Shown here: in pieces, positions 1,342 through 29,240 of the stretch | How positions within the stretch are numbered: the first letter of the stretch is position 1 | Layout of the letters: each line of letters begins with the position of its first letter | NCBI RefSeq assembly: GCF_037975245.1 | Contig: NC_092577.1 | Span: 21,016,898 to 21,080,897 of the forward strand | Direction of reading: 5' to 3' | Origin: Apostichopus japonicus | Taxonomy: Eukaryota > Echinodermata > Holothuroidea > Aspidochirotida > Stichopodidae | DNA: 64,000 nucleotides | The notes under the pieces: model-generated | Told to the model about the DNA's origin: nothing | The model's database searches: none | What the model saw: only the letters and a program-made list of their open reading frames with translations | Program-made: the position numbers and the translations under genes

Positions 1342-1544
1342 TTCACGATAATTTATTCATAGGTGGTCACTTTGGACGTGACAAAACACTAGAAAAGGTG
1401 ACAAGCAGATACTACTGGCGTGGGATTGCGAATGATGTATTAGAATATGTGAAGCAATGTGAGGCATGCCAAAAGAGTAATAACACCTTCGACAAAAAGG
1501 TGGCCAAACTTCATCCAATACCAGTGACCAGTGTATGGCACCAA
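1342..1544 (+). CDS. Integrase exon: HHCC zinc-binding module
   Basis: The exon begins [15 protein letters not shown] and carries the second His pair partner plus C-x2-C (CEAC), the H-H-C-C pattern of retroviral/Gypsy integrase N-terminal domains. It includes RYYWRG, a typical family signature. The donor CAA|GTAAGT leaves phase 0, so WHQ joins directly to VGVDMIGPL in the next exon, exactly as in contiguous Gypsy integrases. Translation past 1544 is intron. Confidence 0.8.
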
Positions 1545-4500
1545 GTAAGTCCAATGCCAATTGACTTTGCTGTTGCATCTCTTTATTCGGGCTTCTTTCT
1601 TCCATATTTCACTAAGCTGGTGACTTGTATGGATGCACTGTCTGGAATTGAATTCAAGAATTTTCAGGCTTAGTCTGTCCGATATTTATTTCTTAATTGA
1701 AGCAGATAAAGTATTACTTTGAGTATATTCTTTCACACTAAAAATCCCATATGGGGGTCACAATATTTTTGGGAGGGCTCGTGCCCCCCCCCCTCCCCAA
1801 GGACACCCCTGGTGACCCACTGGATTCCAGCACATATCATTAATAACATAGGGCTTCCTTGATGGTTGCCAGTTATTTCAGTCCAAGAAGGTCTTTGTGG
1901 TTAAAAGTTCAAGAATGTAACCCCCTCCTTTTTTTTGGCCTTCTGAGTCACTACTTAGACTGCTTTTGTTGTCATTTATCAAGATAACACAGTCTCCTGT
2001 GTGTGTTTTGGGAGTATAAATTGTTTCAGCACTCCATGATAGTTGGGTGGATGGCAGACAAAATTAAAAAAGGTCAAGGAATGGCCTCAACTTCCCACCT
2101 GGACAGCTTATGAGGATAAATCAAAAGTGTCAATATAGTGCAACATAAGTACAGGGTCATGAGGCCTACCTTAATTGTTGCCAATGGCTTACATCAAATG
2201 ACACATTTGACACTTTAATGACCAATATACACTTCATGGTGATGAATTCAAACAACTATAACTATATGTTGAATTCTGAAGAACTTGTTGTTTCTTGAAT
2301 TGGTCACATGGCTGTTGTGGTGCTAACATGATAAGCGAGTAGGTATCATGTTGCTAATAAACAGCCACCAAGCTTTGTGCTGAAAAGGACATGTGAGTGA
2401 GTAGTAATACTTTTAAATCAAGAAAAGCCTAAATCATGCAATTTAAATTACAATTTCAAAAGTTTCACTGTCCAGTATCCAAGTGTTTGCAAAATTTGAT
2501 ACAGCTTTCTGTTCTGTACGAGAATTGTTAATGGTGTGTACATTATTAGCAGTGTAAGAATTGTCGAGAACAAACTTAAAGACTATATCTATAACCATGA
2601 ACAATCTACATATCTCAACTATCTATTTCTATAACCATGAACAATCTATATATCACAACTTTCTATTTCTATAATATACCTCTTTAACTATACTTTGTAA
2701 ATATTATTGCTATGGAGATGGAATTCTTGGGCGTGAGCCAGTGAAAGTCCGAAAGTTGGTGCTTATGTAGGTCAGGCAGGATGAAGGAGAGATAAGGGGA
2801 GATGGGGGTCAAGAGGGGTTAGGGATGTGTGTGTGTGTGTTTCTACAGTGTATGCTATATGTACAGACTACTTTATGATATTGTGTGAGAGGAAGGGAGT
2901 TCACTTTGACTTGGAATATTGGCCTTGTGTTGTTGTGCTGGTTGTTGGGAAATGAAGGGTGTGGCTGAGAGTGAAGTGACTGCAAACTGATAAAGACCTG
3001 AGAGATTGAGTGAAGGAGTTTGGGACTGGAGTAGTGAAGGAATAAAAGTCACAGAACATTATAAATATTCTCTATTCTTATCTTTGAAATTCCACGCTTC
3101 CGCATGAAACTTTGCAGCTTTGTCGGGACTAAACTAACATCGATCCTCTACCCGACAAGAATACCCGCTTAAGCACATTCAGTCATCGAGTAGTCTTTCG
3201 TTAAATTTCAATGAGTATATATCAGCATGATTGGAAATCCTTAATAGCAGTATTTTGTCTACAAAACTCAGACATAAATCACTTGAACATCAATTGGTAT
3301 GATTGTGTATGGTTCTGAATGCTATTTCACTTCTTTTTAAGGTCGGTGTGGATATGATTGGACCCCTTCCAGAGACCATTAGTGGAAATAAGTATGTAAT
3401 AACACTGTGTGATTATTTCTCAAAATGGCCAGAGGCCGTTGCCGTAAGGAACAAAACAGCCAAAACCGTCGCAAACTTTCTGTTTGAAACCATGGCCAGG
3501 TAAATATCCATCTACTTTTGTTTCTACTTTACATAGCATACTTATAAAATTAGTTATGTAGACCTGCATTTGCACTCTGTTGCGCCTGTGACCCAGAAAG
3601 CGGCCAAATGGTTACAGGAATTTCTTGAGTTGTTTTTTAAGTTAATGTCAAGAAAATGTTAGTGGGATGACAGTCAGTGCATCTAAAACAACATGTTATG
3701 ACAGTGTTTAACTTACTTTTATTTAAATCGGTGCTAAAATAATCTCCTGAATAGACCACGCAGCCACTATGAAGATGCCAGTAGTTCACTACATTGCTCG
3801 TAATCAGTACTTTAACAATATATTGAAATGTTTCCATTTATTTAGATTTGGATGCATGAAAATTGTAATATCAGACCAGGGAGGAGAATTTGTGAATGCG
3901 GTGAACAAGTCCCTGTTTGACATGACAGGGGTGGACCACAGGGTTTCCTCCAGCTACCACCCACAGACCAATGGGCTGGATGAAAGGTTCAATCAAACTT
4001 TGCAAAGGGCACTCATCAAAGTTGTCAACAATAACCAAGATGACTGGGATGAAATGCTGTCCTCAATACTTATGGATTACAGAACAGCCAAACATGCTTC
4101 AACGGGTCTTTCACCATTTGTTGTGATGTTTGGAAGGTTTGTAATAATTCAAACCTACCATTGCAGAATAGAGATTTACATTTGCTAAGGCCATATACAC
4201 AGAAAAGGCAATAAGGGACAAGAGAGTTTGGACAAATCCTGCATAGCTACACCAATCCTCTATAAGATAAAATCTAATTTGACACATCCCAGGTCCTGGG
4301 AAAAACCGCTAAATAGAGGACCATCAATAACCCTTTTTAAGTTACAATACCTAAACAAATAATATTAACCCTGTATATGGTACACTCTTCAGCAGGTAAA
4401 AAAGAACATTCATTAAACTGTTAATGCATGCCCATTAATTTAAAAGATACATGCAATTAATGCCACTGACATGGCTTTGTTTTTCATATACTTAGTATAT

Positions 4501-7091
4501 ATATCATGATTGGATGGTATGCAATTTGGACCTATAGCAGCACAAAATATACTTCTGTTTTATATTTGTGCTGGTTCGAGTATGTGATGTGAATCAAATT
4601 TATGGTTCCATGGTCTATAATAGTGAAAATAAAATATTTGAAACTTTATATATTATTCAGTCAAGAAAGTGTTGTGAATAATCGATTGCTAATTTATCTC
4701 AATATATCCAGAGAGCCATTGTTACCAGTCGACATTGAAGAATCAATGGTCCACCCAGAATCTCCTACCGACTGCAGCGATGCACAGCAGGAGAGGGTTT
4801 ATCAATCCATGGCACAGTCGCGGGAAAAAATCAAAGGTGTTGTGAAAGGAAATATCAGCAAAGCCCAAGAACGACAAAAAAAGAATTTTGATAAGAGGCA
4901 CCAATCAGAAAAGGTAATTACATAGTACTATGTTGTGCATTAAAATCTGCACTGTAGTTAAATGAATGGCAACATATGCATTGTATTATGATGTTTACAT
5001 ATATCTGCTGGATTTTGTTTTATTCAGAACTTCAAAGTTGGTTCTAGTGTTCTTGTCCGGAATGCTAGGAAGGATGTCCGTAGAGGAGGAAAACTAGAAA
5101 ACTCTTGGCTTGGGCCGTACATAGTGAAGGATGTGAACGAGAAAGGGCTGTTTACACTAATAAACAGTTCCACAGGCCTTCCTTTGAAGAAGAAATTTAA
5201 TTCCATTTTACTGAAAGAATTTCACAAAGTAAGATTTCTTTGCAGTCTTTTTTTTTGAGGGTGGGGAGGGGGGATTGGCATGATTCCTCCAGAATTTCCT
5301 TAAAAATAATCAGCAACTTAATGACTTAGTAATTTGCTGGCTTATGTGAGGGTAACAGGCTGTAGCTGTCTTTACACAATAAATCAATTTCCACATAATG
5401 CATAGTTGATTTTCCATATTTTGAAAAGAATAATATTAAGAAAATGTCCCTTAACATATTACAAAATTCAAAAGGGAATTGTGATATAATATCATTGTGG
5501 AAATGTTGCTGGACCATTTCAAAGTTGTTGTTATGGCAGAGATGATATACTGCTTAAATATTCATGGTGGTGGCAGCAACCCAATGAGATTCCTGGCTTG
5601 CAGCTGACATCAGGAACTTGGCCAAAGTTGGTTGAGTTGATAATCAAACACACTGTCTAGACTGAGTTTACAGGAAGACCAGCCATCAAATTACCATTTC
5701 CCCAAAGAGTGGTGTAGCTGGGAATTAACCACATTGCACTTTGCATGTGTGGTTGGAGTATTAATTTTATACATAAAAACACTTCATGAAGTCACATTTA
5801 TTCTTTCATCAACATTGATTCTATCATCACATTAATCCTCATAGATGCATTTCCATAATAGGGACTGATATCGACCGTCTTAGATTTCCTTGAGTTTTGA
5901 AAAAAATGTGGATAAATATTATACATACAGTATATTGGATAGACAAAATAGGTACAGAACATATGTGTTAAAGGTCTTGCCACAAAGGCCAGTGTCGTCA
6001 GCTCAGCATTATACAAGTATGGAATTAATAGTTGTGTTACATGGCCTGCAGATCTCAGGACGTAACAGATACAGGGATATTGTGACGACGGCCAGTTTCT
6101 TAGGACAAAATCATCACACTTCATTAACTTTGCTATATGGTGCCATGTTTTACAGATAAAAACGTCCTAATTAAGGAAAGTGTAAGTATACTTGAGTTTT
6201 CAAATTTGCTTGCAATGATATAGAATCAATAACTTCTATGCATGGAATATTTTCAATATATATCACCCAGATGGTATATTTGCAGTGGTTGGATAAGTTG
6301 GTACATGGCTCTGAAAATTATTACAGTATACTGTATACCAGCTATACTTGTAATACTGTACCCATGCTATTGGTATACATCTGCCTTTATTGTTCTTTGC
6401 AAATAACCATCCAATATATGAAAACCAATTTAATACTGTATAGCTAATCATATCGATTCTCTTAAATAATTTTAATTAATCGTTAACCCAATTAATAATT
6501 CAATTAATTGACTGATCACTCAATCAATCCATAATTACACTCCAGCATTTAAAGAAGTATAATTTAGTTCAGTACTGTTCCACCACATGAACCTTTACTT
6601 TCTCATTTCAGTTACATCTACTAATGAGTAACATGACTTACACCCGTAGGATAACATTCATGTAATAAATTACATGGTAGTCCACATCAGTTACTATAGA
6701 TGTTAAATACACAAATGACAGTTTTGTCATGAAGTTTGCAAATTCACTGAAAAATTGTAACATTATGATTGCATTTATGATTTCAACCTCATAACTAATC
6801 TTGCTTTGATCCAGCATGGAAAAGACTTACCTCAATTGCTTCTTGCAAGGTATGTCGATATCGAGTGATGGACAACCTCAAAATAACTCTCTCATGAACT
6901 CATCTGATCAACATTATCTTGAATTTGGTATGACCTCTATGTAGTAACATGTTCCTTAATTAACAAAAGTAGTAACATGTTCCTCAACAAAAAAAACAAA
7001 CAAATTTGTATTAAATATCAAATAAATATCTCTGGGCTTATTGAGATCATTCCCATTTTTTTTATTGCAAGAAAGAATTCAGTAATGAAAG

Positions 7092-7130
<39 letters not shown>

Positions 7131-10100
7131 AGACGGCATTAATTCCAGGTGAAGAGTGCTCAATATACCTGGGTATAGAGCTGGTTATAGATATAAATAA
7201 TGTACGCATAATTCTTCGAAGAAGCATGAAACTCAAGTAATAGCGCAAACTTTGTACGAGTGTGCATTATTTATATCTCTATATATATATATCTCTATAT
7301 ATATATCTCTATATATATCTCTATATATATATATCTCTATATATATATATATCTCTATATATATATATATATGTCTATATATATATATATATATAGAGAG
7401 ATATATATATATAGATATATATATATATATGTATATACAGTATGACCTGTGCTGTCAAAGGTTGTTGAATGTCATCCTTGATAATTTTAATTATTCTATT
7501 TCAGAAACCTGAAGCCAGTATCATCAGTACAAACACACCAAATGAGGTAAGCAGCCCAAGTTTGAATATGATAAAATTATGCAGTAGAAGAAATTTGACT
7601 TAAGGGTAGTCTGTATAGGCCAAAAATTATAGCATGCTTTTCTGAAGATTTCAAAAAGTATTTTCTTGGACATCCTTGTGTCCAGACTGGTTTCTGACAT
7701 TCTAAATGAACACACAAGATAACTGAATATTTCAGTGAGGAAATGCCTCCAGGGTGGTTGACAGTTGACAAATATTTAAAAAATGTGACCGTATTTGAAC
7801 TTTTGGCATATTTGGGGCCAAACAAACCTCTGCCCCCCTGCACATTTCTCCACCCCAACCTCTGTTCTATATTTCTCTTTCACAATATATGTTACCTTCT
7901 TACAGGGAGAAACATGATCAAGGTCAATACAGCCCCACAGTTATTGCATATATATCCAACTTGAGACAAGTTTCTTGCAAGGAATACAGATTTTTTCTAT
8001 TTCAAATTGAGTTTTCTGTTTAATTATTTTTTGGATATTGATCCATGTTATTGTGATTTCCTTGATCGTGGAAAATCACTGGCCATGCTTGACAAGTCAC
8101 ATTAAATATTGTTAAATGTTTTTTTTATTTCAGGAACAAAGCAATCTTGTTACTGTAAAGGTAAGTAACCTAAGACAACCCATGCGGCTTTAGAAATAAA
8201 TTCATTAAGGCAGGGATTGCAAGCTACGAACTTGCAAGACTTCATGTGACTTGATCCACCGCTCCCCACCTGGATATGTTGACAAATATTGGTAGTTGGC
8301 TTTCGTGGAGTGCAGACGTGTTTTTCGCTCTCGTTCTCGCTCTACATCTGATAATTTTTTTTCACTGTACTGTACTGTGCTATATTTCCCGCCAGGCGGG
8401 TGTGCGCCAGTTCGTATATCGTATATCGTTATCGTATATAGTCATCGTATATTGTATTTTATCCAACCTATCTTTAGTTTGTTTTGTTACTCCTCTGTGG
8501 CCCAGCCACCTTCGGTATCATGGCATCGCGCCGTGATTCCAAAATTGTTAAGTTAACCTTCACCGGTGAACAAGCGGTTCCACCGGTGCAAGTTTTTAGT
8601 ATTTTAAAGAGTAAGGGTGTTGTTGTGCCTGGAGAGGTTGATGCGTTGCAAGCTCTCCAGGGTCGTAATACTTATGATGTACGTTTTACAAGTGACGTGA
8701 CCCGGCAGAAGGGTGTCACGTTGCTGAGTGGGGTTGAAGGTTTGACAGTTACTCCATACGAGCGTTCCGTATGGGTAACTGTCATCCACGTAGGACTAGA
8801 GGTGCGTCAGGAACTTGTCGCAACTGTTTTAGGTCGGTTTGGGGCTGTGAAGGCCATCAAAATGTGCTCCTACGCACAGGCCCCTGGGGTGTTGAACGGG
8901 CACCGACAGGTTCGGATCGACCTCAAGCAGGACATTCCCTCCTTCCTTTTTACTGCCGGGCATAAAGCTCACGTGCGTTACCCCGGTCAGCCCCGTACCT
9001 GCTTCAGGTGTGGGGAGACCGGGCACGAAGCCAAGGGCTGCCCAAACAAAAAGTGTGGGCGCTGCCTTCGTCTTGGGCATGATACCTCTGCTTGCCCAAG
9101 CGAAGTTGTGTGCTCACTCTGTGGGAAGGAGGGGCATGTTTTTCGCGCTTGTCCCTCCTCTTATGTCTTTATGACAAAGAGTGGGGGTCAATCAAAGGCG
9201 CCAAGTTCTGGCGCACCTACTGCCTCGGAGGAAGCTCCACGCAAAGAGGGGGAACCGGCTGCACCTAGTTCACCCTCCCCCGTAGTTGCAGACCCCAACC
9301 CCGTGCCCGCACCGGGAAAGTCTCCACCAGCTTCCCCTATCAGCTCGTCCAGTTCCGTCCCCAGTCCGCCGCCGGTATCGCCAGATCCGGAGACTCTGTC
9401 CGACGGCGACTCCGGGGACTCGATGGTCATCGGGTCTCCGGAGGCTCTGTCTGACAGCGACTCCGGGGGCTCGGTGATCGTCGAGCCAAAACGTGCCACT
9501 GGGACGAGCTGGTACGACGAGATGGGGGAACCCTCTCTAAAAAGGTCGGCCTCAAGTGACGACTCGGACGACGATATGTCGTCTAGAGCGCGCTTGAAGC
9601 TTACAGAATCGTCGTCGGCGTAGTTTTGCCCCATTGCCCTCTCATGGCCCATACATTTTCAGTTGCCACTTTGAACGTGAATGGCATGAGGGATCACCGC
9701 AAGCGCAGTCGCATTTTCCAATATTGTATTTCAATGGAGGTCGACTGCGTTTGCCTGCAAGAAACACATATTTTGGAACAAGATGTCCCTCTATGGGCTT
9801 ATGAGTGGGGTGGTGGGCTGCATGCTTCGTTTGGTTCGTCTTCATCCTGTGGCACTGTCATCCTTTTGTCACCTCGTCAGGCGGGTTGTGCCACTAGGGT
9901 GGAGACGGATCACGAGGGCCGATTGGTTTGCATTCTTTTCAAGTATCCACAGGGTAACATCTCCCTCTGCAATGTGTATGCTCCCAATCGGCCTTCTGCT
10001 AGACGAGAATTTTTTAACACGCTGCCTTCCTTTGTTCCTGGTAGTGCACCATGTGTCATGGTCGGAGACTTTAACTGTGTCCCAGACTCGGGTCTTGACA

Positions 10101-13100
10101 GACTCGGGTCTTGACAGACTCGGGGCTTCTGTGTCTGCTAGTCCTGACGCTGGGATCACAGAATTGGACAGATTCACTTCGGCACACCTTTTAGCCGATG
10201 TGTGGAGGCATATGCACCCGTGTAGTACGGTGTATACGTGGGTGAGGCCTAACGGAGAAGATGCCTCCAGGATAGATCGAGTGTATGCGCCCGTAAGTTT
10301 TACATTTTCGGGTTGCGAGACGCTCAGCTGTCCGCTCTCTGACCATGACACTGTGGTAGCACGTTTTGTTTTGCCTTCCATTTTCCCCATCGGGCGGGGC
10401 CTATGGAAGCTTAACTGTCGGATTCTTGGCGAGGCAGAGTTCCGCCAGGGTTTCGAGACCAGGTACAAAGGATGGCAAACATTGAAGCCGGCCTTTGCTT
10501 CTACATCCCAATGGTGGGATGATGTCAAGTTGCGCATCAAACGCTACGCAATTCAGTATTGCGTGACCCGCGCACGGCGTCGAAGAGAAATATTCTCGAA
10601 GCTGTGCGCGGAGGTGAAGTTTGGCGACCCTTCGGCTGTCATCGCTTTGCAGACTTATCTCGATGAAAAGTACCACGGTGCCCGCGTCAGGGCCCGTGTC
10701 GAAGCGGTGGAAGCCGAGGAGCGCCCTTCACTGAGGTTTTACCAGTCCGTTAGCTCATCGGCAGGTGACAGACGCGTCCCGTCTGTGCGCGCTACTGATG
10801 GGACCGTGGTAAGTGACCCTCACGGCATTGTCCGCGTATATAAAGAGTATTATTCGAGTTTGTTTACGCGTGGCAATGTCGACTTGTCGGCACAGGCTGA
10901 TTTATTGAGGGGAATCTCAAAAACCGTTCCCCACGATGTCAATGATATTTGGGGGGGGGGGCGGAATAACCACTGTTGAGCTTTGGAAGGCGCTTTCGAA
11001 GATGAAGAATGGCAAGTCCCCGGGTTCGGACGGGCTTCCGAAGGAGTTCTACCGAACCTTCTGGGCAATAATAGGACCCGACATCAGAGCCGTCTTCGAG
11101 GACGCCTTCCAAAACGGACTGTTAAACCAAAGTCAACGTATGGGCATGATTACTTTGCTGCCCAAGTCTGGGGACCCCTTGGATCCCCGTAACAAGCGTC
11201 CGATCACCTTGTTAAATGTGGACTACAAGTTGCTGGCTAAGGCTTTGTGCAACCGCCTTGCACTGGCTATGCCGCATCTTGTGGGTGATCTCCAGACTTG
11301 TGCAGTGAAGGGTCATTGCATTGCAACTTGTGGTTGATGCGCGACTTGACCGACTTTGTTATTGAGCGTGATCTGCCATGTGCATTGGTGTCTCTGGACC
11401 AGCAGAAGGCCTTTGACATGGTGGATCGCGGTTTTTTAATGAATGTATTGGAGACGTTTCAGTTGCACCCAAATTTTCGTAACTGGATTTCTGTTTTGTA
11501 TGAAGAAAGTTTCAGTTCTGTTATCGTAAATGGGTTTTGTTCGGAGGTTTTTAACGTAGAGAGGGGGGTGCGCCAGGGGTGCCCTCTGTCTCCATTACTT
11601 TATGTTTTGTTTAGCGAGTCCCTCTCTCGTCTTTTGGAAAGGGACTCCAGACTTGTTCCATTCGTTGTGCCAGGGGGTGCCAAAGTGAAATGCGCTCAAT
11701 ATGCAGATGACGTGACATGTGTTGTTTCGAGTCTGGGCTCCTTTCGCGCACTCTCGCAGGATTTATCTATTTTTGAGAGAGCTACCGGGCCGAAGTTGAA
11801 TCCAGAAAAGACAAAGGGCCTTCGTCTTGGTAGCTGGAGATACAGAGACCATTCGGTGCGTCGTGGTCGGATCAGAATATCAAAATTAATGGTATATGGT
11901 TCGGCTACGATGCACCTGGTGATGTCACCTGGAGCGAGAGGGCTGAGGTATTTGAGAGCAGGCTCGAAACCTTTGGCACCCGCTGGCTTTCGATCCTTGG
12001 GAAAGTCACCGTAGTTAATCGTTTTGTTTCGCCCATCTTGTGGTACCCGGGCGCGGTGTATCCAATTCCGCGTCGCGTCCTGGTGCGGTTGGAGAGCGAT
12101 ATTTTCATTTATTTGGTCGGGTGGTACAGAGCTTGTCAAAAGGGCGGTAATGTAGCAAACACTGGAGAAGGGTGGGTTAGGGGTGGTTCATCTGGGAAGT
12201 AAGTTAACTTAGTTTGTTATTTAAGCAGTTGTTTGTAGCGGTAACTGACCCAGGGTTGCCTTGTTCATATTTTGGGGCGGTTTGCACCTGCGTCGATGGG
12301 TCCCGGCGCTGTTTAGCAACAGAGAACCGCATAGTAGTACTCCAAACAGGGTGGTGCGTGTCATTTGCTCCGCTCTGATTGAGTTGCCCCCTGTTGACCT
12401 GTCACAGCCGGCCCTCGTTCACAGTTCGTTGCGGGATAGGGCCTTGAATGCATTTTTTGTACAGGGACGTCATCCTGTCGAAGTATGGCGTTCGGTGCAT
12501 TCAAGGCTGAATGGTTGCAGGCTCCGTGACCTTGCATGGAGAATTGCACACGGTGCCTTGGTGACCAATCTGAAAAGGTATCACTGGCGATTGGGTGATG
12601 GACTGTGCCCGAGGACCGGCTGTGACAGCTTAGAGAGTACTGCTCATGTTTTTTGGCATTGCCCCTTTGTTTTGAACTTGTGGGAGTGGTTTCAGTCCTG
12701 GACCGACCGTTTAACGGGAGACCGTTCCTGGTCGGTAGGACAGGGTTTTGTTTTGTATGGATTAGATCCTCCAGTTTGTTCCGTTGCTGTGTTGCAGCGT
12801 ATTATTTATGTTTGTTCTGTTGTAAGAAAACTTATTTGGAGGAATAGATGTGATGTTGTTTTTAGGGGGAAATTTGCCAGTTGGCAGGCAGTCCTGGAGG
12901 CGGTGAAGTCTGACATTCGCCTTCAGGTTGAAGGCGATTTTCGCCGTTTATCTAGGGCTGCCTTTTTTGGACGGTGGTGTGCTGGGGAAGGGTGTTTTGT
13001 TTCGCTGCGTGCTGGTCGTCCTTTTGTAGTTTTTTAATATTTCAGTGGGGGGCGTTTACAGTGCCAGGACCATATCCTTGACAAAATCGTACGCCTCGCG

Positions 13101-16100
13101 AAATCAAGGGAAAATTCCAACCGGTTTTGGACACAATTGCAAGGGGCATTTTGTGGTGTTCCAACCCCATCCCAAAGGTTGGCACCCATGGCAGTATATC
13201 ATAATTTTCACTTGAACAATGAAGGTTTTAAGTTTTATTATCCCCCAAATAAACTAGATTTCCAGCATGGGCACTCTCTTTGTCAAGTTCATGATACCTC
13301 TACTCCTTTCTCCCAGTAGCATATTCCAACAAATGGTTATTAAGATGTCTTTATCATTTTACTTGATGAGAGTAACTTTTCAGCTTACAGAAGCTAGTGA
13401 CAGACTTCCAAGACAGTGCTTTGAAGCATCAAGCAGTCATTAAGAAAAAAAATAGATACAAATGAAGGCTGCAACCCAAATCTTTTCCACATATATTGAT
13501 GAGCCACCCCATGTCAAATGTAGATTTCCTACAAATCTAAATTTTCCTTCTTTTTTTAGCTTCTTCCAAACCTGGGTAATACATGTTACATGGCTGCTGC
13601 ACTTCAGATCTTTGAAGGAAGCGGCATCATTCAACACTACGATGGACATAGCTCTGAATTAATGGAAGTAATCAAAGCTCTCTTCCATGCAACTTCAACC
13701 TCAACTTCATGGGACCCCTGTCTTGCAAGGTTGAAGCAGATTCTTCCAGAGTTTGATTCAACTGCCCAGGAGGATGCATTAGAATTCCTTGGTGCACTTT
13801 ACACATCATCATGCACTTCCTGTAACCAAAGCCAGTGCAAACTTTTAGATGAGTAAGAGATATGGATCGTTGTGTAAAAAACATATCTAGGTGAAGTCAA
13901 AGCCACACAATTAAAACACAAATAATTGAACTTTTCAATGTTTTATTAAAAGTTCTGCTATGTTGGCCCCAAATATGCACATTTTAAAATATGGTCACCT
14001 TTAGTCAAATTTATATGTACTGTTTTTATTACAATCTTTGAGGAAATTTACCTCACTGTGACATTCAGTCATCTTTGAATGTTCGTTAAGAACTATTTCG
14101 ACTAAAGGCCCAATGAAAGTAACTTGTTGTAAACTTTTAGCAATTATAGCATACTATAATTTGGCGGCCTATACAGATTACCTTTAACATTGAAACTGAT
14201 TTGGAATTTGCTTAGTTTAAAGGGAACTAGTCAGATTTGAAAGTGGTATTATGGCACCAGTTACATCTGACTGATAAACTTGCATCAATACAATGAGGAT
14301 GAACTTTTCATAAAACTGGGTTTAGATGATAGTCTGTATCTGATTTATAAGTTTGTTGCTCTTAATAGTAGTTCTGATAATTTGAAGTAAGAGCTAAATG
14401 AAAGTTGTTCATTTATAGCTGAAAATCCAGAGGGTAAAGAAGCAAATGGAAATTGCAATAGAAATGCTACATTGTTGTAATTAGTAACTTATTTTTTTTC
14501 CTTTCCAGGTACTTCTTCTTACATACAACAAATGAGATGAAGTGTACTTCCTGCAATGAGACTTGGCACAGTGAGGCAAACTCCTATCCAGTAATTCCAA
14601 TTTATCCTAGTAACAAGAGCTATATGTCTCGTTTGAGTATGCAGGGGCACCTTGAGATGTTTCTAGATTGCCAAGATCTTGAAGGTCTTTGTGATTCCTG
14701 GTGAGTTCCTGCAAAAACTCCCTGTTCTTGTCATAATGTTTTTATTCCATTTTGTTTTGTGTAATGTAAAATTGTTCAATTTGTAACACAATGCATGTTT
14801 GTGAAGTAACAATATGTGTGTTTTTGTGTGTAATGCTAATAGCCTGTCATTAAGATAACTCAATAAAGTGACAAATGAACAGGAGTCAAATTCTGAAACT
14901 ATTAGTGATATAAGCTAATGGCCAAAAATCATACATTGGTAATTTTCAGATTTAGAATCCAGCTTGAGTTGTAATGATCCCATTGGGCAGTTCTAACTAC
15001 TGTATACAGGGATCTTCTCATATTGATTGTAGATATTAGGTGTTATGTCTTTCCAAATTTATTGTAAATTCCTGCTATGCATGAATATAAGTCATATATT
15101 GCGGTTGACCCAGCTTGTATATAAGGTCTATGAAAGTCTGACAAGATCGTTACAAACTGTATTCATTTTGAAAAGTAAATCTAATAAAACAAATATCAGA
15201 ACCAGTGAGAATTTATATTTTTACTGCTGAATAGTCTAATTTATAAAGGTAATTGACTTTTAGTAGACTTCAAATGTCTGAAGTAATTTTACTTACACAC
15301 ACTGCATGACACGTTAAGACATACCAAACAAGTATCTAGCTGATAGGATCAGGCATGTAGCCAGGAATTTGCCAAGGGAGGGGTGAAACTGTAGATTCGG
15401 CATTGCAAACTATCTAAGCGTAGCGCCACCATGATTGGCGCGAAGTGTACAGGAAAATTTTGGCTGTAGATGCCTCCCAGATTGCCGGAAATGTCACTTC
15501 CCATGCCTTGTTAGTTGTATCTTAGCATTTTCTTTTTTGAAAATACTAGCGATATCATAAAAACCTTTAAAAAGTTTTTTCAAAATATGCTCAAGGGGGT
15601 GGTGGCTACCCCCTTTGCCCCCCCCCCTTGGCTATGCAGTTGGATAGGATGTCATGAGACACAAATCACTAAAATTGTCCCCTAGGCTTTCAGTGGTTGG
15701 CATAAATAAAGGATATTTTCTGATGATGAATTTTTTTATTTCAATTTCCATTTCACTTTTGTCAGACTAACAACAAATTTTCAACTTTCATAATAAAATT
15801 CCTTAAGTTGCAAAATAGGTCTAGTTCCATGCTGAAAATTTTTATGCATTGTTTGTTTTAGAAGTTGTGCTCTTAACTCTACTCCAGTCCAAATTTGAAA
15901 CAAGTATTTTATTTTATTCTTTCCAGTGGCAGTTCAGATGGCCTTCTTGTGTCTCCAACCATAACATCTACCCCGGAAGTGATCAGCATTGGCATATCTC
16001 GCTGGGGTGGGGATAAGTTGAAGAAAAACTTCCAAACCATTGATATTGAAGCAGAAGTTAGACTGTCTGGGGTCTTGTATGAGCTTTATGGTGTTTTGGT

Positions 16101-18813
16101 TAGTAACTAAAGTATAATTGTCACAAAGTGAAGCTATATTAACCATGTGTTCCCCTATGCTGAGGATCCACTGTTCAGCTAAAATTTTAACAGCAGTAAA
16201 AGTATAAACACCAAAGGGCAATCAAAATTTACAATTGGGTAATGCAAGATTCTGCTTTTGAAAAGGGTATATAGAGAATTGCAATAAAATCCATTTAATT
16301 TCAAAAAAGAATATTGGGAACAGTCCCCCATGCCCCCACCAGTCTGTGGCGCTCCACTCCAAACTAATAATGAAAGTCACTGCAATAAGTTATAAGGAAG
16401 GACATATATAATTTCCAGCTCTGTGTGATGCAGTGTTTGCTTTAGAAACACCACACCCCTCACCAGGGATTCCGAACTTAGAAAACCTAATGAAATTGCC
16501 ACTTTGAAAATGCATTGTATAAAGTTAAATACTTTTCTAATAAAGAAATAGAAAATTTAATGATAATCATGAAATGTTTGCAATGGATCATTTAAAAAAA
16601 AAAATTCTAGTTAATTATAGAATCAAGAAATGTATACTTTAGTAAGCACCATATATCTTCCTGGAGAACCACAAGCCATAGTTACTGGGATTCTCCCTTC
16701 TTCCCTTGAGATGACTAACATATAGGCAAATTCAATGCACTTAATCAAATAATGCACATACTAAATAGTATGGCAGATGTGGATACAGGTTTTTCCAAAT
16801 AGGCTTAACATGTACAGAGGAGAATTCCAACCACAACAAAGCTTAAATATGGAGCAAACATATGTTCTCATGAAAATATGTTAATATGTTAAATTGATGC
16901 ATCACAAAGGGAGAGATATGGTGAAGTCTGTGTGTGTGTGTGGGGGGGGGATGAACCTCTGACTACCCATGGAACTCCCCCTGTTTATGAATCATACTTG
17001 TCTACATAATTTTGTTTGTATAATCCACCCCTCCCCCCCATCATACTCCAGCCCCCAACAGTGGTGATTTCTTAAACAAGCTTATATGGCCTAGGCTTTG
17101 GAAACACTGAGAAGATTCTCAACGTTTTCTATTTAGGCTAACACCAAACAAAAGCTTACCACGCTTGTTTAGGAATTTGTTTGACAATTGAAGGATGCAC
17201 CAGAAAAAACATATATTTAAAAAGCATTACTCTTTTTCGTATAGATTCACGAAGGGACATCGTCAACCAGTGGACACTACTCTTGCGCTAAAAGAGTGAA
17301 AGACAACAGCTGGGTCCACATGAATGATGGCACATGCACAGTAATTGCCAAATCAGCAATAGACAGTAGCAATGTATGTGGTGCGTTTTATAAAAAGGGT
17401 AAGTTCTGTTGCTATTCTTCTCCCGACAAAATAATTTAAATGGTTAAATTATGATACAAATACATTGGACACAGAGAGTCAAAATTCATTAAAAAGTTAA
17501 CAAAGTGACAAGTACTGAGAATCCAGTGTGTTCCTTATCAGGTGTTTCAAATGCTGCTTTTATTCTGAACCTCTTTTGATTTGTACTATTATTCCACCCT
17601 TGGAAATTGTGGCAAATTGCAACCATTGGTAAAAATGAGCTTGGACTTATTAAAATGCTAAAAAATAAAATGCAGTCTGTATATGTAGCCCTAAATTAAA
17701 GCATGCTATAATATTTTCCTGGAGATATTTACTCTCCAACTTTTTCTCAGACATTCCAAATGAACACACAAGAGGACAGGATGCCACAGCGAGTTAAAGT
17801 TCCTTTAGGGTGGTACTAATGGGTTAAGAATTTTTACCAAATAGGTGACCATATTTTGCAAATCTGGAATATTTGGGGTGAAATGAGCATAAATATAACT
17901 GTAGTTTGTTATTTCCTCCTGTAATATTGACTATATATGTATGCCTTCACTATTTGGCAATGGGCCGGTAGTTGTGTCCTTAATCAGATATGACCTTGAC
18001 ATGTGCATGTGGGTATGTTAGTTTGTGTGTGCATTTGACTGTATGTGTGTGAGTGACTTTGGCTTGCAAACAATAAGTTAAAGGTGCTTGAACTTTAACC
18101 TCAACGTAGGTAGACTTTTGTGAGAAGATGCTCCCTGTGACTTGTTTTTATAGAGGACAAAGGTCATTTGAGTTCAACAAAGGGCAAAAGTCTGAAAACT
18201 TCAAAAACACAAAATCTCAAGATGTACCTTCGCCTGATCTTCAAACTTATTAGATAGCCCTTTGTGAGTTGATGATTGCTACATTTACTATTGAGGTTAA
18301 AATCTGAAAACTTTGTAAACATATCATCTTTAGCCTTATATGTGTTATGTACATATAAATCAATGCTAAGACCCTTACACGTCTAGCCATAGCAATAATG
18401 GTGAAATATCTTGTATTAAAGAGTTGCTCATAATGACACAGAATTCATTAACTTTCTTATTGTTTATGTGTTGCCTCCAAAGTAGCAGATAATGAGTGCA
18501 TGGAAGATGAAGAGGAGGGTGTACAACTCCATACTAGAAATGTTAAGCTGGTTCACTATGTAAGTATAACACTTCACACAACCTTATGCTGGGAACCTTC
18601 TTGTCATATAAAGTACACTGGAGATACATATGTCTGTTATTGATGTATTACATTCATCCTCAAAGAAATCATCCACCATCCTTTCTAACAGATAAGTATG
18701 GGTGTGAAAACGTTGTTAATTTTTTTGCCGTGGCGTAATCAGCTTCATCTTTTCTTAACTTAGATGGCTGATATTGTACAACACCTGAATGAGATAATGT
18801 CTGGCAAACTAGG
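1342..18813 (+). CDS. Multi-exon gene: Gypsy/Ginger-type integrase fused to a USP deubiquitinase domain
   Basis: Thirteen exons can be chained with AG acceptors, GT donors and agreeing phases: 1342-1544, 3342-3499, 3846-4136, 4712-4913, 5028-5228, 7505-7546, 8134-8160, 13560-13852, 14509-14700, 15927-16098, 17245-17398, 18483-18559, 18764-18813. The first five give an integrase: an HHCC zinc module, a D,D-35-E catalytic core and a GPY/F-like tail. Two short linker exons then lead, without a stop, into a ubiquitin-specific protease domain with the Cys-box [10 protein letters not shown] and the His-box GHYSCAKR. Known: Ginger DNA transposons encode Gypsy-like integrases in intron-containing genes, sometimes with extra protease or PHD domains. 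Inference: this is a Ginger-like element gene or a host gene derived from one. No reverse transcriptase, RNase H or LTR is seen, which argues against an ordinary Ty3/Gypsy copy. The 5' end is outside the window and the 3' end is uncertain. Confidence 0.75.
1545..3341 (+). other. Intron with a 40-bp tandem repeat and a poly-C relic
   Basis: This intron lies between the integrase zinc and core exons. It holds a C-rich MITE-like scrap near 1740-1815 (ccccccccctcccc followed by cacccctgg), a 40-bp tandem repeat at about 2584-2672 (unit around ctataaccatgaacaatcta, just over two copies) and a short (TG)n at 2826-2840. No coding sequence is seen. Confidence 0.5.
3342..3499 (+). CDS. Integrase exon: first catalytic Asp
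   Basis: After a pyrimidine-rich acceptor (cttctttttaag) the exon reads [12 protein letters not shown] and then [10 protein letters not shown]. The D of VDMIGP aligns with the first catalytic Asp of the DDE core. The exon ends ATGGCCAG|GTAAAT in phase 2, which matches the one-base start of the next exon. Confidence 0.85.
3846..4136 (+). CDS. Integrase exon: D35E core
   Basis: It carries VISDQGGEF (second Asp) and [16 protein letters not shown] (catalytic Glu). I count 35 residues between that Asp and Glu, the canonical D,D-35-E spacing, so all three catalytic acids are kept. It ends SPFVVMFGR, a conserved block of Gypsy/Ginger integrases, at a GGAAG|GTTTGT donor in phase 2. Confidence 0.88.
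4712..4913 (+). CDS. Integrase exon: post-core helical linker
   Basis: Acceptor atatatccag. The exon encodes a hydrophilic segment ending [18 protein letters not shown], resembling the Gln/Lys-rich helix that leads into the integrase C-terminal domain (compare the Q..QK..YD.RH pattern of the family). The donor AAAAG|GTAATT leaves phase 0. Confidence 0.75.
5028..5228 (+). CDS. Integrase exon: GPY/F-type C-terminal domain
   Basis: It begins [16 protein letters not shown] and contains [13 protein letters not shown]. The W-x-GPY motif is the GPY/F module of Ty3/Gypsy and Ginger integrases. It also contains [13 protein letters not shown], which corresponds to the family block after the GPY barrel. 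Phase 0 at both ends. Confidence 0.8.
5229..7504 (+). other. Intron with simple repeats
   Basis: This intron follows the GPY/F exon. It contains (TA)n at about 7094-7127 and a long ATATCTCT-type array at about 7263-7435. A splice-flanked 35-bp segment near 6816-6850 was considered as an exon but is incompatible in phase. Confidence 0.5.
7263..7437. repeat. Compound (TA)n / ATATCTCT microsatellite
   Basis: About 170 bp of alternating TA runs interrupted by CTCT or GAGA blocks. Left of about 7375 the interruptions read CTCT, and right of it GAGA, so the array is roughly self-complementary around its middle and could fold. Apparent proteins of repeated Tyr/Ile/Ser are artefacts. Confidence 0.9.
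7505..8160 (+). CDS. Two short linker exons (7505-7546 and 8134-8160)
   Basis: Both mini-exons have strong splice signals: tctatttcag | 42 bp | GTAAGC, and ttttatttcag | 27 bp | GTAAGT. Both are phase 0 at each end. They encode polar linkers ([14 protein letters not shown] and EQSNLVTVK) between the integrase tail and the protease domain. Length divisible by three and open frame fit alternative inclusion. The sequence between them is intron with a dispersed repeat. Confidence 0.55.
7605..7830 (+). repeat. Dispersed ~230-bp repeat, copy 1
   Basis: It shares ordered blocks with 17670-17890 (same strand) and 13955-14190 (opposite strand): a GTCTGTATA start, a TTATAGCATGCT block, an ACATTC-AATGAACACACAAGA block, TGTGACCGTATTT, and ATATTTGGGG near the end. 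All three copies lie in introns of the integrase/USP gene. Likely a small non-autonomous element; no coding capacity. Confidence 0.7.
8520..9623 (+). CDS. LINE ORF1: RNA-binding protein with three CCHC zinc knuckles
   Basis: The ATG at 8520 ([14 protein letters not shown]) gives an intact frame of 367 codons. Residues about 15-150 look like the RRM-type fold of Tx1/L1-clade ORF1 proteins. Three knuckles follow: [28 protein letters not shown] and [14 protein letters not shown] (about residues 161-212). The C-terminal third is low complexity, rich in Pro, Ser and acidic residues. Known role: nucleic-acid binding and RNP formation in LINE mobilisation. ORF1 is intact although ORF2 is broken. An upstream non-ATG extension is open, but the ATG has a better context. 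Confidence 0.85.
   Translation: MASRRDSKIVKLTFTGEQAVPPVQVFSILKSKGVVVPGEVDALQALQGRNTYDVRFTSDVTRQKGVTLLSGVEGLTVTPYERSVWVTVIHVGLEVRQELVATVLGRFGAVKAIKMCSYAQAPGVLNGHRQVRIDLKQDIPSFLFTAGHKAHVRYPGQPRTCFRCGETGHEAKGCPNKKCGRCLRLGHDTSACPSEVVCSLCGKEGHVFRACPSSYVFMTKSGGQSKAPSSGAPTASEEAPRKEGEPAAPSSPSPVVADPNPVPAPGKSPPASPISSSSSVPSPPPVSPDPETLSDGDSGDSMVIGSPEALSDSDSGGSVIVEPKRATGTSWYDEMGEPSLKRSASSDDSDDDMSSRARLKLTESSSA
9644..13037 (+). pseudogene. LINE ORF2 (endonuclease-reverse transcriptase), multiply frameshifted
   Basis: The ATG at 9644 opens an AP-endonuclease domain ([20 protein letters not shown]). A 16-bp tandem duplication at 10085-10116 shifts the frame; the endonuclease then continues to SDHDTVV (about 10340). 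An 11-G run at 10951-10961 shifts it again. RT blocks follow: [25 protein letters not shown], a shift near 11325, [22 protein letters not shown] and the YADD catalytic box at 11700-11711. Another shift falls near 11880, and about 12120-12260 seems rearranged. The C-terminal frame (to 13037) has a C-x4-C-x7-H-x4-C motif ([19 protein letters not shown]) typical of Tx1/L1 ORF2 tails. Dead copy. Confidence 0.88.
13560..13852 (+). CDS. USP exon: Cys box
   Basis: The acceptor ctttttttag is followed by [16 protein letters not shown], the USP (peptidase family C19) Cys box; C in NTCYM is the expected nucleophile. [11 protein letters not shown] corresponds to the Q-D-A-x-E-F-L block of the family, and CTSCNQSQC may belong to the Cys-rich finger. 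The exon starts in phase 0, in frame with the linker exon at 8134-8160, and ends in phase 2. Confidence 0.85.
13955..14190 (-). repeat. Dispersed ~230-bp repeat, copy 2 (inverted)
   Basis: The reverse complement contains the blocks of copy 1 in the same order: a CTGTATAGGCC start, TTATAGTATGCT, a TGACTGAATGTCACAG stretch, ACCATATTTTAAA and ATTTGGGGCCAA. It lies in the intron after the Cys-box exon. Non-coding. Confidence 0.65.
14509..14700 (+). CDS. USP exon: finger region
   Basis: Acceptor tttcctttccag, donor TCCTG|GTGAGT. It encodes [19 protein letters not shown] followed by a hydrophobic stretch. The C-x2-C pair resembles the zinc-finger half of USP fingers subdomains. Phase 2 in and phase 2 out, matching both neighbours. 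Confidence 0.7.
15345..15655. mobile_element. Short MITE-like element with poly-C
   Basis: The left side reads GGCATGTAGCCAGGAATTTGCC and the right side has poly-C followed by CTTGGCTATGCAG. These resemble the inverted CAGGGA(T/C)GTAGCCAGG / CCTGGCTACATCCCTG ends seen elsewhere in the window. Its interior holds the GCGCCACCATGATTGGCGCG hairpin motif (15424-15443). Ends approximate. Confidence 0.5.
15927..16098 (+). CDS. USP exon: palm region before the His box
   Basis: It encodes [14 protein letters not shown], then a polar segment ending VLYELYGVL. Both match the USP pattern (P.vL.i.L.RF followed later by Y.L.aVi.H.G). Donor TTTTG|GTTAGT leaves phase 0, so YGVL runs into [12 protein letters not shown] in the next exon. 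Confidence 0.75.
17245..17398 (+). CDS. USP exon: His box
   Basis: It begins [18 protein letters not shown]-x-G then GHY, the catalytic His box of USPs. [12 protein letters not shown] follows, where the N-D pair occupies the place of the third catalytic residue, and AFYKK ends the domain. All the expected catalytic motifs of a USP are therefore readable. The exon ends in phase 1. Confidence 0.85.
17670..17890 (+). repeat. Dispersed ~230-bp repeat, copy 3
   Basis: Same blocks as copy 1 on the same strand: GCAGTCTGTATATG, AAAGCATGCTATAAT, AGACATTCCAAATGAACACA, GTGACCATATTTTGC and ATATTTGGGGTGAAA. It lies in the intron after the His-box exon. Confidence 0.7.
18483..18813 (+). CDS. Two C-terminal exons (18483-18559 and 18764-18813)
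   Basis: The first exon encodes an acidic tail ([12 protein letters not shown]) and the second starts [16 protein letters not shown]. Phases agree with the His-box exon. The first acceptor is a tandem AGTAG, so use of the second AG would drop one Val. The second exon ends CTAGG|GTAAGT in phase 2, so at least one more exon must follow; a phase-compatible candidate lies at 24215. Confidence 0.55.
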
Positions 18814-19369
18814 GTAAGTGGACTATATTCCAAGTTCCAACTTTGCTGTATATTCTATGCTTTCTCCATCAAACTTATTATAAGTGACCTAATTCTTTCC
18901 TACAGTCGAAATTTTTCAAATTTTAAAAGTATCATAGTTAATTACAATAATACTACTGCTACTGCCACTGCTCGTCGTCGTCGTCATCATCATCCAATTG
19001 TATCCAATGGATTAAATCTATATGAGAATTCCTCTTGGTAGCTATGGCAGCTGATAAAACATAACGTAGTGCAGATGAGTTGTAATATACAGTTGCATGT
19101 GTCTAGCAGAAAATTCTCCCTAGAAGTCCTACTAAAATGGCTGCACATGGTATGTATCCAAAAAATTGAGTCATGTGTTTTTTCCAGACTGTCTCTTGAT
19201 TGGCTAGTTGTTGCCATGATACAAAAACATCTACTAGGGTACGGTAGTGAACATGGGCGTCAATCCAGGGGGGGGGGACGGGGGGACACGTCCCCCCCCC
19301 ACACACTTGGAAAAAGAGTGTCGTGGCTCTATTTGGTTACGGCTTACTCATCTTAGGATTCATATCCTC

Positions 19370-19712
19370 GAATATCACTCAATGTTGCTGAATGGAGAAT
19401 TCCACCCAGATCTCGTGAGTTGGTACCCTGAGCTCTCCAACAATCGTAAGCTTAGTCTGCCTTTATTTCGAGGCCAGTTCCATTCGTCGTCGGTTGAAGG
19501 GTATAGACAAATATTCAAGTTGATGAATCCAGTGGTACGGGCTATGTTTGGTGAAGTCGAAGCTCTCTTGCGGTTGCTCCTCGTCTCCTCCGCCAGTTCG
19601 ACGGAAGCCGGGAGATCTTTTAGTGCTTTGAGGCGTTTGAAGACAAGGCTACGGAGCACCGTGACTCAACAGAGGCTGAACCATGTGATCGTGTTCCATA
19701 TTCACCGCGCAG
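19370..19712 (+). pseudogene. hAT transposase C-terminal dimerisation domain (fragment)
   Basis: The open frame contains LLRLLLVSSASSTEAGRSF then SALRRLKTRLRS and RLNHVIVFHIHR. This is the conserved hATC dimerisation region (A-S-S..AERSFS.LRRLKT.LRS.....RLN) near the C-terminus of hAT transposases, especially the TTF/ZMYM1-like group. The catalytic RNase-H-like core, BED finger and start are absent. Immediately after HIHR the sequence runs into a MITE starting at about 19710, so the natural C-terminus is lost. Relic. Confidence 0.8.
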
Positions 19713-20527
19713 GGACGTCGTTAGAGGGGGTGTGGGTGTGTCTCACCCCCAAGCCATGGTAAAACTGACGCTAGTTGGAAAATTGGAGTGCGACAGTCGG
19801 AATTTCTGACTGTCGCACTCTAGTTTATCTAGGCCTTTTCATGTATCCCCTGTGATTGTGCATGACCTACAATTTTTTTTTAACATTTCGGTCAAAATTG
19901 ACCTTTAACCTGTCATATTTACCAGGTTTTCCTTGCCACTTTGGGAAATTGTTTCTCGCGATTCTTATACTCCACCGTACAAAACTTGTTATGATTTTGA
20001 ATACTACAAAAAAATGCCTAATAGAACTACCGTCATAGGCGTAGGAGCCCAATTTCTTTTGTGGGGGGGGTGTAACGACTTGCCCGAAAAAAAATATAAC
20101 CATATCATACAGGCATGCATCGGGTTTTACATCGCATGCAAATAGCATACAATCATTTTCCGTCTTATTACCCTTCCGTATTGGTGATAATTGTTGGGTA
20201 ATAATAATATCAGTATAACCACTGAAAAACACATTGGAAATTATCCAAAAAGCTATCAGCATATTGCCCGAATTTCACAAAAATATTTGGTTGGGGTGGG
20301 GGGGGCCAATAAGTTTTTGAAATGAGTGCCAGTGGGTACAAATGTATCGCAACAAGTTCGTAACAGAAGTGCAGTCGCGAAAGTTTTCTGACTGGCACTG
20401 ACCGTATCGTTGACGAGTAGCGTGAGGGTGGGGGGTACAAAGCAGCAGTTGGAATTTTCTGGCTTCAAAACCGATTTTCAGCCACTACACCCCCCCCCCC
20501 AATCATCAGGCCTTAGCTACGTCCCTG
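19710..20527 (+). mobile_element. Non-autonomous hAT-like element, copy 1
   Basis: It starts CAGGGACGTCGTTAGAGG and ends CCTTAGCTACGTCCCTG, an imperfect terminal inverted pair. The interior matches 43199-44082 block by block: TTTATCTAGGCC, CTGTGATTGTG, the AACTACCGTCATAGGCGTAGGAGCCCAA region, GAGTGCCAGTGGGTACA, ATCGTTGACGAGTAGCG and TTTTCTGGCTTCAAAACC. It has no coding capacity. It appears to have inserted into the 3' end of the hAT transposase relic. Confidence 0.75.
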
Positions 20528-26920: not shown

Positions 26921-27118
26921 CATGTATAGGCTCCCAAATGGGGACAACTGCTCAACACAGGAGAATTGGGGACATGATGATATAACTTTGTACTTCCTAC
27001 TGCTTGCGTAAAATAGCTCTTAAATAATATTAAAGGTACCAGCTTAACACTAAAATCTGTTTGTCCATTTTCTATGAATTATTGAACTTGGTTCTACACA
27101 TACCATGTGGGGACACAC

Positions 27119-27345
27119 TGTGTCACCTAACTGGGGACTTGGTGTGTCACCTAACTGGGGACTTGGTGTGTCACCTAACTGGGGACTTGGTGTGTCACCT
27201 AACTGGGGACTTGGTGTGTCACCTAACTGGGGACTTGGTGTGTCACCTAACTGGGGACTTGGTGTGTCACCTAACTGGGGACTTGGTGTGTTAACGAATT
27301 GGGGACTTCGTGTGTCAACAAATTGGGGACTTTCATTAACTGGAG
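27119..27345 (+). repeat. 24-bp minisatellite
   Basis: Seven near-perfect 24-bp units (TGTCACCTAACTGGGGACTTGGTG) from 27121 to about 27288, followed by two or three diverged units. The unit contains the TGGGGAC word that is also scattered near the right end of the enclosing element. Because 24 is divisible by three, all frames stay open and produce false repeat proteins. Confidence 0.92.
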
Positions 27346-28130
27346 AAACCCAGTGTCAACTAATTGGGAACATACTGTATCGACCAACTGGGGGCTCAAC
27401 TGCAGTGGGGACAAACTTTCCTTGTGTCATGCAAAAGAAACAACTTGAAACAAACTGTGTAACATGTCAAAGCATCACCACACCAAAATCAAAGGTGACT
27501 CAAAAATGGGGCAAATTTGCCCCAAAAAATTTGGGCCAAAAATCTTTGATTCTATGATAAAATTCTATTATTGCTATGAAGTAATTTGTTACACCAAAAC
27601 ATCCAATGTCTTTGCCCATTTAACATCTTCTCAACTTTAATATTTACATGGGTGGATTAAGGCAAGACGGTCCAAGGGTTTATAGTGCATTCATTGAACA
27701 CATTGAATAGTAAGAAGTAGCAGTATACACACAGTGCATGATGCACAATAAAACTTTATTAACTGAAACTTTCAGCAAAAAAAGGTGCATTGTACAGTTT
27801 TCAGGAATTCCTAAAACAAAATGTTTTGACTGATTGCTTTTATGTCTGTTGCCTGGTAAAATACAGTTTGCAGACATTTCCCTATAAGAATAGCATAGTT
27901 AAACTGATGCTGTACACTACCAGTATTTGTACTATATATATGCAAATGGAAGTGTGAGTACAGTACTTTAATTTCAGTCTAGAAGTGAAACAATTTGATA
28001 TGAAACATACAGAAGCATTAAAACTGCCTCTCAACAAATAATGCTCAAAAATAATTAAGCTGTGTACCCCTACATTAAAGATCCCAAGCAAACTGTTTTG
28101 TAAAACAGTTCCCATGACAGACTAGAAAGA

Positions 28131-28618: not shown

Positions 28619-28830
28619 CTAATACCACTTTTTGTTAGCCCTTCCAGAGTGATTTCTTATGAAGTCTTTAATATTGGTCCACTTCCTTCCATCAAAACAA
28701 CTGTACTTTTCCATCACCCTATCAATAGCTGTCTTTCCAGGCAATTGGTTTAATGCTATTTCTCGTCTGAATTCCTTTAAAACTACTCTTTTCTCATCTT
28801 CTGTCCATACCCTCCTTTGGTATTTTCTCC
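28619..28830 (-). CDS. C-terminal exon with Myb/SANT-like domain
   Basis: Minus strand, acceptor GTCCTTTCAG. It encodes RRVWTEDEKRVVLKEFRR, a Leu/Pro segment, CFDGRKWTNIKDFIRNH and a basic end, then TAG at 28619-28621. The W-T-x-x-E start and later W-x-x-x-K-x-F-I spacing suggest a Myb/SANT-like DNA-binding helix bundle, a tail I recall from related recombinase-like genes. Frame fully open. Confidence 0.7.
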
Positions 28831-29060
28831 CTGAAAGGACAACAAATATATACATTACTATGTGGTGCTTTTGAAAAATACACCTCAATGTTGCCATGTG
28901 ATAGTTTACAATATAAAGAAACAAATCACATCAAAATGTTTTGAGGTTGGTCTCCAGCATAAATTGCAATCTGTCTAGTATACTCCTCATATTTTGTTGT
29001 TTAAATAAAACTAGAAAATATTTATTTTAAATGGTTTGTTTTATTTATGAACAATATTAC

Positions 29061-29240
29061 CTTTCTTCATACTGGGTGGTTCTTCTCCTTCGGAATTAGT
29101 GCTTTCAAAAGTGGTGCCATTAGCTTGATGCAGAGACCCTACACTTTCCATGCTGCCCTCATCCCTACTTGTGTCCTTCTCCTCTTCCTCCTCCTCATCA
29201 CTATCATCTGTATCATCAGATGATTCTATGTTGTCAATTT
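29061..29240 (-). CDS. Acidic linker exon
   Basis: Minus strand, acceptor ATTTCCACAG, donor AAAG|GTAATA; 180 bp, phase 1 in and out. It encodes ESSDDTDDSDEEEEEEKDTS and a Ser/Glu-rich remainder ending PPSMKKG. A disordered linker is expected. Confidence 0.7.

Follow-up and report, generated by a model that had tools for sequence, protein, structure and literature searches.

The integrase-USP gene in the window

The window, i.e., the whole stretch of 64,000 nucleotides analyzed here (C17:21016898-21080897 of the 671.6-Mb Apostichopus japonicus assembly), contains on its plus strand a multiexon gene in which an integrase is joined to a ubiquitin-specific protease (USP). The integrase half is encoded by exons at 1363 to 1544 (exon 2 of the gene and the first in the window, with the H2C2 zinc finger), 3342 to 3499 (first catalytic Asp, in GVDMIGP), 3846 to 4136 (second Asp, in ISDQ, and Glu, in GLDERFN, with 35 residues between them), 4712 to 4913 (C-terminal part of the integrase), and 5028 to 5228 (GPY/F motif). 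Linker exons at 7505 to 7546 and 8134 to 8160, the latter of 27 nt and absent from the annotated protein P0001, precede an intron that holds a LINE insertion on the same strand (8288 to 13050). The USP half follows in exons at 13560 to 13852 (oxyanion Asn and catalytic Cys), 14509 to 14700 (first CxxC), 15927 to 16098 (the second CxxC straddles the junction with the preceding exon), and 17245 to 17398 (His box and Asn-Asp). An exon at 18483 to 18559 lies 3' of the USP domain, and the last exon present, at 18764 to 18813, begins a tail motif that is common to the urchin protein described below. As the original prediction had claimed from the sequence, these are splice-bounded exons that keep phase from the integrase into the USP: GT-AG borders and matching phases were found for 13 of 13, and the joined exons give 680 codons with no stop. 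Stop triplets number 652 of 9,989 in the introns of the same region, and at that rate the chance of 680 stop-free codons is ~1e-20.

A profile search, which had been proposed as a check, identified Integrase_H2C2 (1.6e-16), rve (1.6e-9), and UCH (2.4e-28) in the joined window product, the UCH match covering profile positions 4 to 248 of 254. In the alignment led by P0001, the integrase motifs are H-H-C-C, D, D, E, and GPY, with 35 residues from the second Asp to the Glu, and the USP motifs are the oxyanion Asn, Cys, His, Asn, and both CxxC pairs; the long alignment places some urchin USP columns wrongly, which pairwise alignment corrects. The window protein keeps all of these residues, the first zinc finger His being encoded in the upstream exon when the acceptor at 1363 is used, and the claim that the catalytic motifs of both enzymes are readable is thus borne out by the alignment (D-D-35-E, H2C2, GPY, and the USP residues). 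With its Cys box, His box, Asn/Asp, and two CxxC pairs, the C-terminal half is predicted to be a USP (UCH, peptidase C19). In the predicted structure of P0001, the pLDDT values are mostly 80 to 95 in the integrase half and mostly below 50 in the USP half, and because of the latter the structure prediction was set aside.

The first window exon has two in-frame acceptors: that at 1342 is used by the gene model P0002, and that at 1363 fits P0001, P0003, and the urchin protein. The exon with the initiating ATG lies upstream of the window, at L001:8403-8655, ~1.6 kb ahead of window base 1; it matches model P0003 at 85 of 85 residues, and the frame that includes it runs for 764 amino acids without a stop. 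At the other end, no credible match to P0001 residues 766 to 890, which correspond to the C-terminal exons, was found within the window or over a further 220 kb downstream (best E value, 0.14), and read-through beyond exon 13 meets a stop at once. The original prediction of a complete fused gene therefore stands for the integrase and USP motifs but not for the window copy as a whole, which is without the C-terminal exons and stops after exon 13.

The annotated A. japonicus models have an additional linker exon between window exons 5 and 6, either at 6156 to 6181 (matching P0001) or at 6815 to 6849 (matching P0002 and P0003). Both shift the frame in the window copy because the 3' end of the exon at 5028 to 5228, beside the exon-5 donor, differs in length by one base from the copies on C12 and C9; exon 5 joined straight to exon 6 is in frame. 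An insertion at 2562 to 3156, which starts with TG, ends with CA, and has a short target repeat, is absent from the C12 and C9 copies.

Some neighboring features were recorded as well. The LINE at 8288 to 13050 consists of CCHC ORF1, endonuclease, and reverse transcriptase pieces in changing frames and resembles the LINE that flanks the element upstream. On the minus strand, window positions 28619 to 31212 hold adjoining open frames of 103, 284, and 244 amino acids, the last two of which gave no Pfam match above the cutoff. There is a weak match to a hAT dimerization domain at 19238 to 19759 (E value, 0.018), and a tandem repeat at 27050 to 27557 translates as SPQLGDT or SPNWGLGV.

Copies of the gene in the A. 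japonicus genome

A genome search with P0001, in which 51 of 1,943 candidates were scored, identified near-identical exons at least on C12 and C9. The C12 copy encodes P0001 and has all of the C-terminal exons. It is 95.6 to 96.6% identical to the window copy, introns included, from L001:7518 to window position 18899, where the homology ends and the C12 copy continues alone with four more exons. A third copy of the integrase-USP gene is located on C9, and a dead copy lies on C17 (L008) ~100 kb downstream; its reading frame contains two stops and a frameshift, and the catalytic Glu is altered. Introns are kept among the copies at 93 to 97%. Of the copies read, only that on C12 has the C-terminal exons, C9 having been read for its left half. 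The window copy is best read as 3' truncated and decaying. The LINE between the two halves had been noted as an old one; its position in the intron is as stated, but it is not old, and it must be younger than the duplication because it is absent from the matching place in C12.

Full copies of the USP exon at 13560 to 13852 were found in the window, on C9, on C12, and on C17 at position 15970478, the last with a stop. Besides these four and one weak match, there were 67 partial matches, some of which are two pieces of one copy, on C4, C5, C8, C11, C12, C14, C15, C19, C20, C21, and C22; they cover mostly residues 22 to 98, most contain a stop, and they are often clustered ~0.1 to 0.3 Mb apart. 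Elsewhere, C23:5797219-5798346 contains an integrase frame with one TGA that is 40% identical to P0001 residues 76 to 442 and perhaps represents another Ginger1 lineage in this genome.

The same fusion in other proteins

The architecture of the window gene recurs in annotated proteins. P0001 of A. japonicus (890 amino acids) matches the window protein at 98% in the alignment, and P0002 and P0003 are partial models from the same species with the same integrase-USP architecture. P0004, the 808-residue product of Strongylocentrotus purpuratus LOC100889000, also shares it, at 38% in the alignment. Among the 120 proteins listed of 213 matches in the protein search, only these four combine UCH with an integrase-type domain. 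The USPs of the urchin and the sea cucumber match each other at ~1e-26 within a comparison set that held just two other USPs, matching at 1e-10 to 1e-12 or weaker, and the short tails after the USP match at 5e-6. The matching USPs and tails point to one origin of the fusion. The integrases of the two animals are neither joined nor clearly parted in the trees (AU test, P = 0.30). A protein search with the urchin USP returned itself and two other USPs, and in a profile search with 7,992 candidates scored, P0001 was not among the matches listed. The best match of the USP among solved structures is of the USP36 type (E value, 1.2e-8).

Placement of the integrase

In an integrase tree of 48 sequences rooted on 9 Gypsy sequences, the fusion integrase falls, with support of 98/98, in a clade of 35 that includes integrases carrying OTU, Ulp1, or PHD domains and GIN-named proteins; sequences were counted as Ginger1 by Pfam makeup or source name, and none is from Repbase. 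The split of all 39 non-Gypsy sequences from Gypsy is weak (76/92). The Ginger1 integrase hallmarks H2C2, D-D-35-E, and GPY/F are all present, and Ginger2 is without GPY/F according to the Ginger1 description (PMC2836005). The window fusion carries UCH and not the C-terminal OTU or Ulp1 of Ginger1. However, Ginger1-1_BF is also reported in that text to be without either (PMC2836005), and we therefore do not count OTU/Ulp1 as strictly defining for Ginger1.

The literature searched yielded no paper describing an integrase-USP protein; subscription papers and Repbase lay outside it, and Repbase may name the element. The available portion of the main text of a screen for fusions with transposon domains (PMC12062965) contains neither "UCH" nor "ubiquitin carboxyl." A pattern search of viral contigs gave 48 matches, of which none was confirmed.

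Selection on the fusion

Against the C12 copy, the dN/dS ratio of the window copy is 0.31 in the integrase half and 0.32 in the USP half (on 12.5 silent versus 15.5 replacement changes, counted without the 27-nt exon and the final codon of exon 5), and against the C9 copy it is 1.0 in the integrase half, the only half compared (3.5 silent and 12.5 replacement changes). The comparison with the dead copy, over 227 codons in three exons with 2 stop codons set aside, gave a dS of 0.245, a dN of 0.039, and a ratio of 0.16; differences by codon position were 8/229, 12/229, and 34/228. In the same pair, 55 of 693 exon positions and 224 of 3,299 noncoding positions differ, and by that yardstick the exons are not slower, so the two yardsticks disagree. 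The noncoding divergence is far below dS, perhaps since local alignments retain the best-matching stretches. We read these values, with the small numbers in mind, as suggesting constraint in the past that was later relaxed in the window and C9 copies, and as a signal of past selection on the fusion.

Left terminus and search for a right end

All four gene copies examined have a common left end, TGTGGCAGTAATGAGTGTCC, and their flanks are unrelated. The shared left terminus, TGTGGCAG, begins with TGTGG, and the window copy is flanked by a LINE in antisense orientation whose sequence stops at CCGG. The first 98 nt of the left end match at least 40 loci at 99 to 100% (40 scored of 81 candidates). 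When 600 nt were used as the query, 36 of the 40 scored matches (91 candidates) stop at 595 to 598, and these copies therefore share just a 596-nt unit; the other 4 reach 599 to 600. The unit lacks a terminal CA, and it is present once in each gene-bearing stretch examined (n = 4), with no recurrence 3' of the gene.

Published Ginger1 elements have a 5' end of TGTNR and use CCGG as the target in 75% of cases, CCGT being another target (PMC2836005), and the TGTGG of all four gene copies conforms to TGTNR. We compared the flanking four bases of 24 ends, 4 from gene copies and 20 picked from the 98-nt matches (two may belong to one element); having been found with the left end as the query, the 20 inform on the flanks and not on the TGTGG letters. 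The flanks were CCAG (4 ends), CTGG (4), CCGG (4), CAGG (3), CTAG (2), and seven single others, with CYRG before the end in 14 of 24.

The original prediction had also called for a search for further copies with terminal inverted repeats (TIRs), which in Ginger1 measure 40 to 270 bp. The copies exist, on C12, C9, and C17, but no inverted repeat was found, nor was a right terminus or a 4-bp target site duplication (TSD) near the gene copies, whose right flanks were covered in part. The inverse of the first 20 nt, with up to 4 errors allowed, has one match in the DNA stretches examined, at window position 45009; with 4 errors and 26 kb beyond the end of homology, it was rejected as a right terminus and attributed to chance. 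There is none within 2.7 kb past the last C12 exon. When 10-nt segments of the inverse end were scanned for, with 2 mismatches allowed, the matches were numerous and scattered, two of them lying in L031 past or within the end of the C12 gene. Among the longest 25 of 134 inverted repeat pairs in window positions 1 to 34000, none spans the gene. A comparison of 8.4 kb upstream with 21 kb downstream gave one 44-nt repeat, with 3 copies in the DNA examined, which was dismissed as a terminal repeat. On C20, two 596-nt units lie in inverted orientation 15.5 kb apart (24811614 to 24812209, plus strand; 24826487 to 24827083, minus strand), flanked by CCTC and CCTA with no exact duplication.

A proposed Ginger1-type transposon and its alternatives

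The repeated left end, the TGTNR start, and the CYRG targets suggest, short of proof, that the gene is part of a mobile element. We consider it probable (roughly 60%) that the window holds a copy of a Ginger1-type transposon that was mobile until recently. Its transposase would include a USP and so add a third type of protease to the OTU and Ulp1 of published Ginger1 elements. The element would be a large, multi-intron DNA transposon, of which the window copy would be a 3'-truncated and decaying representative, and its transposase would combine an N-terminal Gypsy/Ginger1-like integrase with a C-terminal USP. The integrase would bind and cut element ends starting with TGTGG and, using D-D-35-E chemistry, would insert them at a 4-bp target resembling CYRG. 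The transposase, or else chromatin or repair proteins present at that site, might be deubiquitinated by the USP, and this removal could allow the complex to survive and the break to be sealed. We infer the enzyme activities, their substrates, mobility by this very protein, and the existence of a right terminus; the motifs, together with the recurrent pairing of such integrases with ubiquitin/SUMO proteases, suggest what the enzymes do and what part the USP plays. Several observations count against a transposon. CCGG precedes 4 of 24 ends versus 75% in the published set; the gene spans ~20 kb with some 18 exons, whereas published Ginger1 elements measure 2.6 to 7 kb with at most 4 introns (PMC2836005); and the search for the USP exon yielded only four full copies, of which one has a stop. 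Also on this side are the 36 of 40 scored unit copies that match no further than 595 to 598 nt, the unequal flanks of the C20 pair, the AU result for the two integrases, and the exons that are not slower than noncoding positions against the dead copy. As for a new Ginger lineage, one of the two options originally offered, the grouping of the integrase with Ginger1-like and GIN proteins (98/98) and the repeated TGTGG end speak for it, but no TIR or TSD was found.

The other option was a domesticated gene. It would be a Ginger1-derived host gene with a fusion that predates the sea cucumber/sea urchin split, the C12 locus being the gene itself; the window, C9, and dead copies would be later segmental duplicates, and the left end would by chance be a common repeat. 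The same architecture in urchin LOC100889000, the dN/dS ratios of 0.31 (integrase) and 0.32 (USP) against C12, the introns retained at 93 to 97%, and the C-terminal exons seen in C12 alone among the copies read (C9 in its left half) all fit this account. However, we place a plain domesticated gene among the rivals because the left end matches at least 40 loci, and the repeated terminus favors a mobile element. A single fixed locus without transposon ends is not what is seen in this genome: several copies lie behind the repeated left end, all four of those examined start at the identical terminus amid unrelated flanks, and dN/dS between the window and C9 is 1.0 in the integrase half. Taken as a whole, domestication with later duplication is the main rival but seems to us unlikely, at little better than one chance in four.

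We find it improbable that the 596-nt unit stems from another mobile element, e.g., an LTR-like or other terminal repeat, with the integrase-USP gene as cargo and not as its transposase. That 36 of 40 scored unit copies share only ~596 nt with the gene-bearing copies would agree with this, but the unit has no CA end and occurs once per gene-bearing stretch (n = 4), never again after the gene, and both the TGTNR start and the CYRG targets are consistent with a Ginger1 integrase. It is very improbable that two separate adjoining genes have been joined by annotation alone. The 5.4-kb intron with a LINE between the halves and the out-of-frame annotated linker exons could be taken that way, but the LINE is absent in C12, and fused gene models in two echinoderm classes, the sea cucumber and the sea urchin, with a tail in common, contradict two separate genes, in keeping with the single gene first proposed.

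A more specific form of the transposon reading, in which an echinoderm Ginger1 lineage was recently mobile with a USP in its transposase and in which three unrelated protease families (OTU, Ulp1, and USP) were fused on separate occasions to integrases of one kind, seems to us slightly better than an even bet. If true, the removal of ubiquitin-like tags would be a recurrent need of cut-and-paste transposition by retroviral-type integrases, and a third protease family in the same position would argue strongly, on comparative grounds, that the activity is important. The proposal is testable, given that the animal is farmed and that its element ends are near identical.

Comparison with known systems

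The closest known systems are the Ginger1 transposons. In the available text of Bao and colleagues (PMC2836005), the integrase of their transposases is followed by OTU or Ulp1 and in some cases PHD is present, a role for the ubiquitin and SUMO pathways is discussed, and a C19 peptidase comes up only in connection with a different type of transposase. The same authors raise the question of why this group of transposases should have ubiquitin/SUMO proteases (PMC2836005). The sea cucumber element resembles Ginger1 in an H2C2, DDE, and GPY/F integrase followed by a C-terminal protease of the ubiquitin/SUMO type, and in the 5' TGTNR end; CCGG is among its targets as well, though before only 4 of 24 ends. 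It differs in the USP, in many more introns and a far greater length, and in that neither TIR nor TSD was found. From USP36-type proteases (match E value, 1.2e-8), the sea cucumber USP differs in being distant and fused to an integrase.

The vertebrate genes GIN1 and GIN2 likewise contain a Ginger1-derived integrase in a multiexon gene; in the accessible parts of the sources (PMC3424704; PMC2836005), no protease domain is mentioned for them, whereas the sea cucumber has a USP and several copies that each follow a repeated terminus. In malacostracan crustaceans, Imagin is an invertebrate multiexon gene from Ginger1, and in its text, as available, the words "ubiquitin" and "protease" are absent (PMC12863088). 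Imagin is described as being without the DDE triad (PMC12863088), whereas all three residues are kept in the sea cucumber; were the gene domesticated after all, the host would have retained in it the motifs of both enzymes, in contrast to Imagin.
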